Source: Ehretia macrophylla (taxonomy: Eukaryota > Streptophyta > Magnoliopsida > Boraginales > Ehretiaceae). Taken from it: 64,000 nucleotides of DNA. The first letter of the stretch is position 1. Each line of letters begins with the position of its first letter. Below the pieces are notes generated by a model. The model had not been told where the DNA came from, did not search any database, and worked only from the letters and a program-made list of their open reading frames with translations. Positions 1-64,000 of this stretch are shown here, piece after piece. The stretch covers positions 64,164,644 through 64,228,643 of the forward strand of contig CM075775.1 of assembly GCA_037974665.1 (NCBI GenBank), in the 5' to 3' direction. Made by a program: the position numbers and the translations under genes.

Positions 1-74
1 CCGAAGTTAAGCGTGCTTGGGAGAGAATAGTACTAGGATGGGTGACCCCCTGGGAAGTCCTCGTGTTGCACCCC
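1..74 (+). rRNA. 5S rRNA: 5S rRNA gene, 3' part (cut by window edge)
   Basis: Consensus positions 46-119 only; the 5' part lies outside the window. Variants C67A and G72A fall in and at the edge of the intermediate element; box C is consensus. Confidence 0.95.
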
Positions 75-634
75 CATTTTCAATTTTTTTTTGCCCTAGT
101 TAGGGTTCCCAAGATACTTTATCCACCAAATTTCTATTACCGAATCCCACGGCACCTTGGGCAAGACAACTTCGCCTCACGTAGAGGTTGGGCCCGTAAA
201 CCGAGGGCGTAGGGCTTGTGACCAAGTCTCCGTTGCTCCGGTGCCCATAACTTTTGATTTGTAAGGACTTATGCGGCGGACAGCCTACCGTTGGAAAGCT
301 CTCCGAGAGCTCTACAATGGAAGTAGCTAGCCTGCTCGCTGTGCCCATTTTTGGAGCCAAAAATTGAACGTTTTCATCAATTTTCAGCCACTTTTCTTCT
401 TTAGCTCTGTTTGTCCATCCTGGATTGTACGTCGTGAGCTGTTTAAAGGACGACAACGTTACTCGCGGGAGATTTGAGGGCCCTACAATGCGTCGATATC
501 ACGTCTTGCGAGGATGCTACGTTGTTAAAGTGGATGGGTTGTCGTTAAGCCCATTGGACCTTTTGAATGGGCCATCTCTTTAGGCTGGGACTGTGAACCG
601 TTAACACATAAAGGACTTGTACCCTCAACATGAC
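75..634 (+). repeat. Intergenic spacer (first complete one)
   Basis: Typical 560-bp spacer with no gene in it: T-runs right after the gene, TTAGGGTT, palindrome region near 298-312, and CATAAAGG upstream of the next copy. All other regular spacers between listed genes have this content. Confidence 0.95.
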
Positions 635-753
635 GGGTGCGATCATACCAGCACTAATGCACCGGATCCCATCAGAACTCCAAAGTTAAGCGTTCTTGGG
701 CGGGAATAGTTCTTGGATGGGTGACCCCCAGGGAAGTCCTCGTGTTGCACCCC
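635..753 (+). rRNA. 5S rRNA: 5S rRNA gene copy
   Basis: Variants G48A, G60T, A69G, G72A, A77T, A80T, T96A. It shares G60T, G72A, A77T and A80T with the copy at 1976, so the two belong to one sublineage two units apart. Its spacer lacks 14 bp near 826 (between CACCTT and CGCC), giving a 664-bp unit. Confidence 0.95.
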
Positions 754-1298
754 CCTTTTCAATTTTTTTTTGCCCTGGTTAGGGTGCCCAAGATACTATA
801 TCCACCAAATTTCTACTCCCGACTCCCACAGCACCTTCGCCTCACATAGAGGCTAGGCCCGCAAACCGAGGGCGTAGAGCTTGTGACCAGGTCTCCGTCG
901 CTCCGGTACTCATAACTTTTGATACGTAAGGACTTACGCAGCGCACAGCATACCGTTGGAAAGCTCTCCGAGAGCTCTACGACGGCGGCAGCTAGCTTGC
1001 TCTCTGTGTCCATTTTTGGAGCCTAAAATCGAACGTTTTCATCTGTTTTCGGCCACTTTTCTTCTTTTGCTCTGTTTATTCGTACCGGATCTTACGTCGT
1101 GAGCTGTTAAAAGGACGACAATGTTACTCACGGGACATTAGAGGGCCCTACAACGCGTCGATAACACGTCTTGCGAGGATGCTGCGTTGTTGAAGCGGAT
1201 GGGTTGTCGTTAAGCCTATTGGGCCTTTTGAATGGGCCATCGCTCTAGGCTGGGACTGTGAACCATAACACATAAAGGAATTGTGACCTCAACATGAC

Positions 1299-1417
1299 GG
1301 GTGCGATCATACCAGCACTAATGCACCGGATCCCATTAGAAATCCGAAGTTAAGCGTGCTTGGGTGAGAGTAGTGCTACGATGGGTGACCCCCTAGGAAG
1401 TCCTCGTGTTGCACCCC
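1299..1417 (+). rRNA. 5S rRNA: 5S rRNA gene copy
   Basis: Variants C39T, C44A, C67T, A77G, G81C, G97A. G81C places it in the TACGATGGG subfamily. Confidence 0.96.
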
Positions 1418-1975
1418 CTTTTCAAATTTTTTTGCCGTGGTTAGGATTGCCAAGATACTTTATCCATCAAATTTCTATTCTCGAATCCCACGGCACCTTA
1501 GACAAGACAACTTCGCTTCACATAGAGGCTGGGCCCGCAAACCGAGGGCGTAGGGATTGTGACCAAGTCTCCGTCACTCCGGTGCCCATAACTTTTGATC
1601 CGTAAGGACTTACGTGGTGTACAGCCTACCGTTGGAAAGCCCTCCGAGAGCTCTACGACGGAGGCATCCAGCTTGCTCGCTATGCTCATTATTGGAGCCC
1701 AAAATCGAATGTTTTCATCAGTTTCTGGCCACTTTTCTTCTTTTGCTCTATTTTTTAGTTCCGGATCGTATGTCGTGAGCTGTTAAAAGGACAACAACGT
1801 TGCTCACGGGACATTAGATAGCCCTATAATGTGTCGATATCACGTCTTGCGAGGATGCTGCGTTGTTGAAGCGGATGGGTTGTCGTTAAGCCCATTGGGC
1901 CCTTTGAATGGGCCATCTCTCTAGGCTAGGACTGTGAACCGTTAACACATAAAGGAATTGTTCCCTCAACATGAC

Positions 1976-2094
1976 GGGTGCGATCATACCAGCACTAATG
2001 CACCGGATCCCATCAGAACTCCGAAGTTAAGCATTCTTGGGCGAGAATAGTTCTTGGATGGGTGACCCCCTGGGAAGTTCTCGTGTTGCACCCC
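1976..2094 (+). rRNA. 5S rRNA: 5S rRNA gene copy
   Basis: Variants G58A, G60T, G72A, A77T, A80T, C104T; sister of the copy at 635. Two A-box changes make efficient Pol III use doubtful. Confidence 0.96.
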
Positions 2095-2654
2095 CCTTTT
2101 CAATTTTTTTTTGCCCTGGTTAAGGTTCCCAAGATATTTTATCCACCAAATTTCTATTAACGAATACCACGGCACCTTGGGCAAGACAACTTCGCCTCAC
2201 GTAGAGGCTGGGCCTGCATACCGAGGGCGTAGAGCTTGTGACCAGGTCTCCATCACTCCGGTGCTCATAACTTTCGATATGTAAGGACTTATGCGGCGCA
2301 CAGCATACCATTGGAAAGCTCTCCGAGAGCTCTACGACAGAGGTAGCTTGCCTACTCGCTTTTCCTATTTTTGGAGCCCAAAATCGAACGTTTTTATCAG
2401 TTTCTGGCCACTTTTCTTCTTTTGCTCTGTTTGTCTGTCCCGGATCGCACGCCGTGAGCTGTTAAAAGGACGACAACGTTACTCGCGGGACATTAGAGGG
2501 CCCTACAACGCGTCGATATCACGTCTTGCGAGGAGGCTACGTTGTTGAAGCGGATGGGTTGTCGTTAAGCCCATTGGACCTTTTGAATGGGCCATCTCTT
2601 TAGGCTGGGACTGTGAGTCGTTAACACATAAAGGAATTGTTCCCTCAACATGAC

Positions 2655-61572: not shown

Positions 61573-62130
61573 CCTTTTCAATTTTTTTTCGCTAGTTAGG
61601 GTTGCCAAGATATTTTATCCACCAAATTTCTATTACCGAATTCCACGGGACCTTGGACAAGACAACTTCGCTTCACGTAGAGGTTGGGCCCGCAAACCAA
61701 GGGCGTAGGGCTTGTAACCAAGTCTCCGTCGCTCCGGTGCCCATAACTTTTGATCCGTAAGAACTTACGCGGCGCACAGCATACCGTTGGAAAGCTCTCT
61801 GAGAGCTCTACGACGGAGGCAGCTAGCCTGCTCGATGTGCCTATATTTGGAGCCCAAAATCGAACGTTTTCATCAGTTTTCGGCCATTTTTCTGCTTTTA
61901 CCCTGTTTTTGGGTCCCGGATCGTACGTCGTGAGCTATTAAAAGGATGACAACGTTACTCACGGGACATTAGAGGGCCCTACAATGCGTCGATATCACGT
62001 CTTGCGAGGTTGCTGCGTTATTGAAGCGGATGGGTTATCGTTAAGCCCATTGGGCCTTTTGAATGGGCCATCTCTCTAGGCTGGGACTGTGAACCGTTAA
62101 CACATAAAGGAATTGTGCCCTCAACATGAC

Positions 62131-62249
62131 GGGTGTGGTCATACCAGTACTAATGCACCAGATCCCATCAGAACTCTGAAGTTAAGCGTGCTTGGACGAG
62201 AGTAGTACTAGGATGGGTGACCCCATGGGAAGTCCTCGTGTTGCACCCC
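62131..62249 (+). rRNA. 5S rRNA: 5S rRNA gene copy
   Basis: C6T, A8G, C18T, G30A, C47T, G66A, C95A. The terminator is broken by a C (AATTTCTTTTG), leaving only short T-runs. Confidence 0.96.
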
Positions 62250-62807
62250 CCTTTTCAATTTCTTTTGCCCAGGTTGGTGTTGCCAATATACTTTATCCAC
62301 CAAATTTCTATTACCGAATCCCACGGTACCTTGGACAAGACAACTTCGCTTACGTAGAGGCTGGGCCTTCAAACCGAGGGCATAGGGCTTGTGACCAGGT
62401 CTCCGTCACTCCAGTGCCCATAACTTTTGATCCGTAAGGACTTACGCGGCACAAAACATACCATTGGAAAGCTCTCCGAGAGCTCTACGATAGAGGTAGC
62501 TAGCCTGCTCACTTTGCCCATTTTAGGAGAACAAAATCGAATGTTTTCATCAGTTTTCGACCACTTTTATTCTATTGCTCTGTTTTTCCGTCCCGGATCG
62601 TACATCGTGAGCTATTAAAAGGACGACAACGTTACTCGCGGGACATTAGAGGGCCATACAACGCGTCGATATCACGTCTTGCGAGGATACTGCGTTGTTG
62701 AAGCAGATGGGTTGTCGTTAAGCCTATTGGGCCTTTTGAATGGGCCATCTCTCTAGGCTGGGACTGTGAACCATTAACACATAAAGGAATTGTGCCCTCA
62801 ACATGAC

Positions 62808-62926
62808 GGGTGCGATCATACCAGTAGTAATGCACCGGATCCTATAAGAACTCCAAAGTTAAGCGTGCTTGGGCGAGAGTAGTTCTAAGATGGGTGACCC
62901 CCAGGGTAGTCCTCGTGTTGCACCCC
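62808..62926 (+). rRNA. 5S rRNA: 5S rRNA gene copy
   Basis: C18T, C20G, C36T, C39A, G48A, A77T, G81A, T96A, A100T. Confidence 0.94.
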
Positions 62927-63484
62927 CATTTTCAATTTTTTTTGCCCGGGTTAGGGTTGCCAAAATACTTTATCCACAAAATTTCTATTACTGAATCCGA
63001 CGGCACCTTGAACAAGAAAACTTCGCTTACGTAAAGGCTGGGCCTTCAAACCTAGGGCATAGGGCTTGTGACCAGGTCTCCGTCGCTCCGGTGCCCATAA
63101 CTTTTGATCCGTAAGGACTTACGCGGCACACAGCATACCGTTGGAAAGCTCTCCGAGAGATCTACGACAGAGGTAGCTAGCCTGCTCACTTTGCCCATTT
63201 TTGGAGCCCAAATTTGAATGTTTTCATCAGTTTTTGATCTCTTTTCTTCTTTTGCTCTGTTTTTTCATCCCGGATCGTACATCGTGAGCTATTAAAAGGA
63301 CGACAACGTTACTCGCAGGACATTAAAGGGCCATACAACGCGTCGATATCACGTCTTGCGAGGATACTGCGTTGCTGAAGCAGATGGGTTGTCGTTAAGC
63401 CTATTGGGCCTTTTGAATGGACCATCTCTCTAGGCTGGGACTGTGAACCGTTAACACATAAAGGAATTGTGCCCTCAACATGAC

Positions 63485-63603
63485 GGGTACGATCATACCA
63501 GCACTAGTGCACCAGATCCCATCAGAACTCCGAAGTTAAGCGTGCTTGGGCGAGAGTAGTACTAGGATGGGTGACCCCCTGGGAAGTCCTCGTGTTGTAC
63601 CCT
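63485..63603 (+). rRNA. 5S rRNA: 5S rRNA gene copy
   Basis: G5A, A23G, G30A, C114T, C119T. Last gene in the window. Confidence 0.96.
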
Positions 63604-64000
63604 CATTTTCAATTTTTTTTGCCCTGGTTAGGGTTGCCAAGATACTTTATCCACCAAATTTTTATTACCAAATCCCACGGCACCTTGGACAAGACAACAT
63701 CGCTTCACGTAGAGGCTGGGCCTGCAAACCGAGGGCATAGGGCTTGTGACCAGGTCTCCGTCGCTCCGGTGCCCATAACTTTTGATCCATAAGGACTTAC
63801 GTGGCGCACAGCATACCGTTGGAAAGCTCTCCGAGAGCTCTACGACGGAGGTAGTTCGCTCGCTCACTCTGCCCCTTTTTGGTGCCCAAAATAGAATGTT
63901 TTCATCAGTTTTTGACCACTTTTCTTCTTTTGCACTATTTTTCCGTCCCGGATCGTACATCGTGAGCTATTAAAAGGACGACAACGTTACTCGCGGGACA
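63604..64000 (+). repeat. Partial intergenic spacer at window end
   Basis: First 397 bp of a normal spacer, with terminator, telo-box-like motif and palindrome (63822-63836), cut by the window edge at CTCGCGGGACA. The array continues beyond. Confidence 0.95.

Follow-up and report, generated by a model that had tools for sequence, protein, structure and literature searches.

We analysed a 64,000-nucleotide stretch of the Ehretia macrophylla genome (C12:64164644-64228643, hereafter the window), which is a one-orientation tandem array of 5S ribosomal DNA (rDNA) units with a consensus unit of 678 bp and a gene of 119 bp. The window is very probably one section of a satellite that occurs throughout the genome, derives from the 5S rDNA of this plant, and decays without effective homogenisation. 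We further consider it somewhat probable that 5S rDNA has escaped concerted evolution in this genome and now ranks among the largest known satellites of ribosomal-gene origin: about 200,000 decaying gene-bearing units and about 240,000 gene-less relatives would occupy near 15% of 1.58 Gb, would have been copied in blocks between chromosomes, and would leave the working genes as a small minority of the family.

Decay of gene and spacer in the window

A search with the Rfam 5S model (RF00001) gave 93 matches in the window, all on the + strand: 91 full copies, one internally deleted, and one clipped at the left end. The 92 uncut copies scored 57–115 bits and were spaced in a 678-bp register, indicating that these are not chance matches. 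Alignment and counting covered 87 of the 92 units, and the results for the window refer to these; left out were the five units that start at 10745 (511 bp), 19371 (1009 bp), 25789 (1231 bp), 41929 (1231 bp), and 63485, the last being truncated by the end of the window.

The aligned genes carried 601 substitutions, i.e., 6.9 per gene or 5.8%, ranging from 1 (54010) to 15 (5344), which reproduced the hand count of the first-pass annotation (about 7 per gene, 6%, with the same extremes). That annotation had also seen no strong conservation of the genes by eye and had named gene diversity far below spacer diversity as an observation that would refute its reading. This was not the case: nucleotide diversity (π) was 0.107 in the gene and 0.121 in the spacer, and substitutions per site were 0.0581 and 0.0686, respectively. 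With the expectation taken from spacer rates in matching sequence context, the observed/expected ratio (O/E) of the gene was 0.86. Hence, the gene shows a slight deficit of change and no strong conservation, unlike a working array, in which the gene is far more conserved than the spacer. Site effects or a leftover of earlier selection could account for the deficit.

Neither the promoter boxes nor the helices showed clear protection in these 87 units. At the positions that we take to be those of the promoter elements, O/E was 0.84 for the A box, 0.76 for the intermediate element, and 1.23 for the C box, every interval being wide, and all three were kept in only 5 of the 87 copies. On the predicted consensus fold, 91.1% of the pairs were kept, the same share (91.1%) as after random exchange of partners between copies, and the observed pairing was reached in 198 of 500 shuffles; all 38 predicted pairs were kept in two copies. 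Selection on the RNA fold was therefore rejected, and most copies lack the intact promoter and fold of a functional array. The 30 bases before the gene changed slowly (O/E 0.72). Separately, unit positions 360–500 of the spacer changed about 1.3 times faster than their context predicts (O/E 1.32).

The first-pass annotation described the genes as kept in length. This applies to most of the aligned copies, but 22 of the 87 are not 119 bp long; a common 1-nt insertion occurs in 18, three of which also carry a 1-nt deletion. Distinct indels outside homopolymers numbered 1 in the gene and 31 in the spacer, which hinted at selection against indels. This was not borne out for deletions in 191 units elsewhere, where those in the gene were not rarer than expected (12 against 8.7; four units were counted twice, locus L002 being inside L016).

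C-to-T plus G-to-A made up 54% of the gene changes. Total change per site in gene and spacer was 0.12 and 0.16 at CG, 0.11 and 0.15 at CHG, and 0.06 and 0.07 at CHH sites; the rates at CG and CHG sites are thus about double those at CHH sites. This spectrum suggests the footprint of methylated cytosine. For a heterochromatic and methylated satellite, what the arrays offer is a footprint, namely the CG and CHG transitions and insertions of long terminal repeat (LTR) elements; they may be methylated, heterochromatic, and silent.

The copies decayed individually. Changes per copy were Poisson-like (variance/mean 0.76 in the gene and 1.12 in the spacer), and the divergence of gene and spacer was uncorrelated among copies (rho 0.08). 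Mean pairwise difference was 0.118 overall and 0.116 for neighbours (lag 1). Homogenisation between neighbours, which would mark a functional array, was accordingly hardly any. Unit pairs at lags 3, 16, and 21 stood out and are read as old block duplications. Terminal branches accounted for 85% of the length of the window tree.

The least changed gene (54010-54128) sits in an old spacer that has diverged like the others (8.4% from the consensus). About 0.1 such gene is expected among 87 copies (Poisson mean 6.76), a value that is suggestive only, and we did not retain selection as its cause; gene conversion or chance could have produced it.

A probable satellite family across the genome

The assembly comprises 1.58 Gb in 20 contigs of 39–126 Mb each. 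Patterns were counted on both strands with at most 3 mismatches, using the reversed pattern as the control. A gene 24-mer had 226,043 matches (control 1), a gene-proximal spacer motif 180,779 (control 1), and a mid-spacer motif 480,566 (control 0). These three motifs were found in 97–100% of sampled units (87 from the window and 178 others, four of the latter counted twice). Cassandra-type retrotransposons carry 5S sequence and may add some matches to the gene 24-mer, against which the gene-proximal spacer count serves as a guard. The matches were also widely distributed: ten loci sampled among 47 listed matches all lay in arrays of the window's unit, on C1, C2, C4, C8, C9, C10, C12, and C17, and 5S-derived matches occurred on at least 17 of the 20 contigs (listed matches and grid points together). 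On a blind systematic grid of 120 points, 21 of the 117 readable points were positive (18%, 95% confidence interval (CI) 12–26%), and 5S units were found at 4 of the 17 readable points lying 1 Mb from contig starts.

These counts bear on the proposal of the first-pass annotation that the window is a relic locus. By its boxes, pairing, and spectrum, the window does appear to be a relic and mostly non-functional, and its array ends 1,166 bp beyond the right end, as a single silenced or relic locus (or its edge) in an otherwise ordinary genome might. Such a locus is nevertheless very improbable, as the ten sampled loci on eight contigs and the 226,043 gene matches contradict it unless the assembly is wrong. 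Unreadable stretches would make the counts too low, and false duplication of repeats during assembly would make them too high: a HiFi assembly of Arabidopsis is reported to hold about 3,962 5S genes against 2,983 estimated from reads (PMC9757041). That excess is only a factor of 1.3, and the mean difference between window units is 12%, with 3.4% between the closest pair, unlike falsely duplicated sequence. The grid agreed with the counts, though it was drawn from the same assembly. We regard inflation as a poor explanation of the numbers and hold to a family dispersed over many chromosomes.

A gene-less form of the unit was found at C12:62654644-62664643 (L025), where a 342-bp tandem repeat corresponds to unit positions 165–501 with a consensus 91% identical to that of the unit. 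The motif spanning its junction occurred 30 times in this locus, 0 times in the window and in five C4 loci, and 240,789 times genome-wide (control 0). The gene and junction counts add up to 466,832, loosely near the mid-spacer count, and further spacer-derived repeats may exist besides the 678- and 342-bp forms. With each motif taken as one whole unit, the 678-bp repeats amount arithmetically to 123–153 Mb and the 342-bp repeats to 82 Mb, together 13–15% of the assembly. The repeat thus has recognisable 5S parts in tandem, a high copy number at many sites, and no gene-level selection apart from the slight deficit described above; with arrays on many chromosomes and a gene-less relative in similar number, it behaves as a satellite family. 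The lengths of 342 and 678 bp are near two and four times 170 bp, a nucleosome-like spacing.

The opposite order of events, in which the 678-bp unit arose later, by insertion of a 5S gene into an older 342-bp satellite, would fit the equal abundance of the 342-bp repeats and their greater diversity in the one locus sampled (pairwise 0.158). Against this order, the gene of the 678-bp unit is bordered on either side by spacer absent from the 342-bp form, and the 342-bp repeat corresponds to the remainder of a plant 5S unit after removal of the gene. We consider it unlikely, and the 342-bp form probably derives from the rDNA.

Propagation of decayed units and better-kept arrays

Units continued to be copied after their genes had been damaged. 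The change 51G>T was present in 15 of the 18 copies with the common 1-nt insertion and in 1 of the 69 others, which points to a broken gene that was propagated. Two units without gene positions ~1–110 were only 91% identical to each other, so that this deletion may have arisen repeatedly rather than been copied. Whole blocks were copied as well: 3.1-kb blocks at C2:87.97 Mb (L006), C12:67.27 Mb (L007), C12:69.13 Mb (L008), and C10:9.52 Mb (L009) were 98.4–99.8% identical, while the units within each block differed from one another by 8–10% (gene) and about 12% (spacer). Near-identical blocks of internally divergent units indicate that already decayed blocks were recently copied between chromosomes. 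Ectopic recombination or reinsertion of circles would explain this, and we prefer neither.

The comparison with other 5S loci proposed by the first-pass annotation found decay elsewhere, but also arrays that keep the gene better. Genome-wide, 2,727 copies were identical to 118 nt of the consensus; the first 100 listed lay at C1:0.87-1.49 Mb, and others, among the copies with up to 3 mismatches, were listed on C2 to C8. At C10:17.08 Mb, π was 0.024 in the gene and 0.038 in the spacer of 17 units, two of which had perfect genes. C10:17.07 Mb had seemed a candidate active locus when 4 units gave a gene/spacer ratio of 0.30, but 17 units gave 0.64, and the small sample had misled. In the two pieces at C10:17.07-17.09 Mb (L005 and L051), C>A or G>T made up 13 of 26 gene changes against 18% in the spacer; we set this excess (50%) aside because the events are too few and partly represent one common variant.

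Across 14 sampled pieces of at least 7 units each, gene diversity followed spacer diversity (π gene = 0.88 × π spacer − 0.012, r 0.89), eight of the pieces coming from one 100-kb stretch of C4 and hence not being independent. This is as expected for near-equal decay of gene and spacer from a source whose spacer was already variable. The gene consensus was identical to that of the window in 6 of 12 other groups (C4 30.00-30.06 Mb; C12 64.29, 64.39, and 65.73 Mb; C10; C8), although their spacer consensus differed from the window's by 1.8–5.4%. In the remaining six, it differed at 1–4 positions, some of these groups being based on 4 units only (four L002 units were counted twice, also in L016). 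The same gene consensus despite differing spacers suggests that the sources kept the gene and the copies lost it.

From these observations, we propose the following course of events. Units with a conserved gene would have seeded new arrays, in which the gene was no longer selected, and gene and spacer would mutate together, largely by C-to-T changes in CG and CHG context. As the arrays would not be homogenised, each copy would decay independently. Decayed units are still copied as DNA, in multi-unit blocks and between chromosomes, and part of the family would have lost the gene and formed the 342-bp satellite. Presumably, the ribosome draws on a minority of intact genes.

Several observations weigh against this interpretation. 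The interval of the gene O/E in the window (95% CI 0.76–0.98) excludes 1, if by a small deficit. A tolerance of 3 mismatches to the 118-nt consensus admits 33,443 copies, so that some members of the family may be recent or functional. At C1:1.255 Mb, π in 14 units was 0.031 in the gene and 0.072 in the spacer (ratio 0.43), and 4 of the 14 genes were perfect. The window tree departs from a pure star, with support exceeding 0.9 at 34 of 85 internal nodes. Nor do the 87 window units form one clade in a joint tree that covers 274 units, so that one founding burst is not supported. Finally, the mid-spacer motif occurred in only 18 of the approximately 30 monomers of the 342-bp locus, and its genome-wide count therefore agrees only loosely with the sum of gene and junction matches.

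The exact and near-exact copies, the slight gene deficit, and the array at C1:1.255 Mb would also suit arrays that serve as a functional 5S reserve despite great heterogeneity, selection being exerted on the pool rather than on individual genes. We find this improbable given how few window copies retain all boxes or all pairs and given pairing no better than shuffled. Gene-level decay in a satellite family, with working genes in a minority, is the explanation that we retain.

The array stops at C12:64229809, at an insert with two long direct repeats that differ by a Kimura two-parameter (K2P) distance of 0.033 and with one open reading frame of at least 150 aa. We read this insert as a putative LTR retrotransposon. 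The suggestion of an array edge in the first-pass annotation therefore holds insofar as this element cuts the array close to the window; the unit itself belongs to a genome-wide family. Two other inserts in 5S arrays had K2P values of 0.049 and 0.008, and the window units average 0.130. On one clock, the array would be about four times older than the edge insert, minus the variation that the units had at the start. At C12:64.29 Mb (L027:5111-8840), a 3.7-kb insert in a 5S unit has a TG start, a CA end, and a 5-bp flanking repeat and looks like a solo LTR. GC-rich minisatellite arrays with a period of about 32 bp lie 60 kb to the left of the window (L022, C12:64104644-64114643; half of the stretch was readable).

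Table 1 Features of the 5S array in the window.
Feature	Position	Strand	Basis
Tandem array of 678-bp 5S rDNA units, 93 5S matches	1..64000	+	Rfam and unit alignment
5S gene clipped by left end of window	1..74	+	Rfam
Leftmost complete gene; 7 substitutions, typical of the decayed copies	635..753	+	Rfam and alignment
First of the 18 copies with the common 1-nt insertion, after gene position 36	2655..2774	+	Indel comparison
Most decayed aligned gene, 15 substitutions	5344..5462	+	Alignment
Unit with deletion of ~positions 84-222 (gene 3' part and spacer start); its 5S match 10745-10849	10745..11255	+	Rfam, unit comparison
Unit with internal spacer duplication, ~positions 228-563	19371..20379	+	Unit comparison
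Unit without gene positions ~1-110	26449..27019	+	BLAST
Second unit without gene positions ~1-110, breakpoints as in 26449..27019 within BLAST resolution	42590..43158	+	BLAST
Single gene without substitution in first 118 nt, only 119C>T	54010..54128	+	Alignment

Comparison with known systems

Over-amplified 5S rDNA and 5S-related satellites are already known from Gnetum, pike, Prosopanche, and the B chromosome of Plantago lagopus. According to the portions of the reports available to us, Gnetum montanum has about 105,200 5S copies (gene-mapped reads put them at about 0.3% of the 4.2-Gb genome) and, as here, very many highly mutated 5S pseudogenes; unlike here, functional and pseudogene copies are thought to alternate, and those portions mention no similarly large gene-less satellite (PMC6526317). 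Pike (Esox) shares the extreme amplification on many chromosomes; its copies, heavily methylated, number about 20,000 by reads and more than 200,000 by slot blot. According to its description, however, the pike gene is homogeneous and in most copies potentially functional, whereas in our array the gene has decayed about as much as the spacer (PMC5437419). The 5S-related satellite PLsatB of P. lagopus has a 325-bp monomer and is reported as B-specific, at 2.95% of reads from B-carrying plants, whereas both forms described here lie on standard contigs (PMC6410184). In Prosopanche panguanensis, 5S rDNA is the most prevalent genome repeat, called "unprecedented" by its authors, and is described from read clusters without an assembly, in contrast to the assembled arrays of this study (PMC12222929). 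Arabidopsis likewise has several 5S clusters, one of which varies between accessions, but with about 3,000–4,000 copies on three chromosomes (PMC9757041). In the accessible parts of a mostly open-access literature, we found no described genome with about 200,000 gene units decayed to near the level of their spacer and equally many gene-less relatives.

Concerted evolution has its textbook example in rDNA. Diversity within arrays has been proposed as a hallmark of its failure, as stated in the accessible part of a review (PMC10462631). The family described here, with a common gene consensus, arrays of varied divergence, a near-single rate, and a gene-less relative, opens failed concerted evolution to study at genome scale in assembled arrays. 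It also cautions that 5S copy counts and fluorescence in situ hybridisation signals need not mirror gene supply. The family further makes it possible to test how the plant picks out a few thousand working 5S genes from about 200,000 copies and by what means blocks are copied from one chromosome to another.

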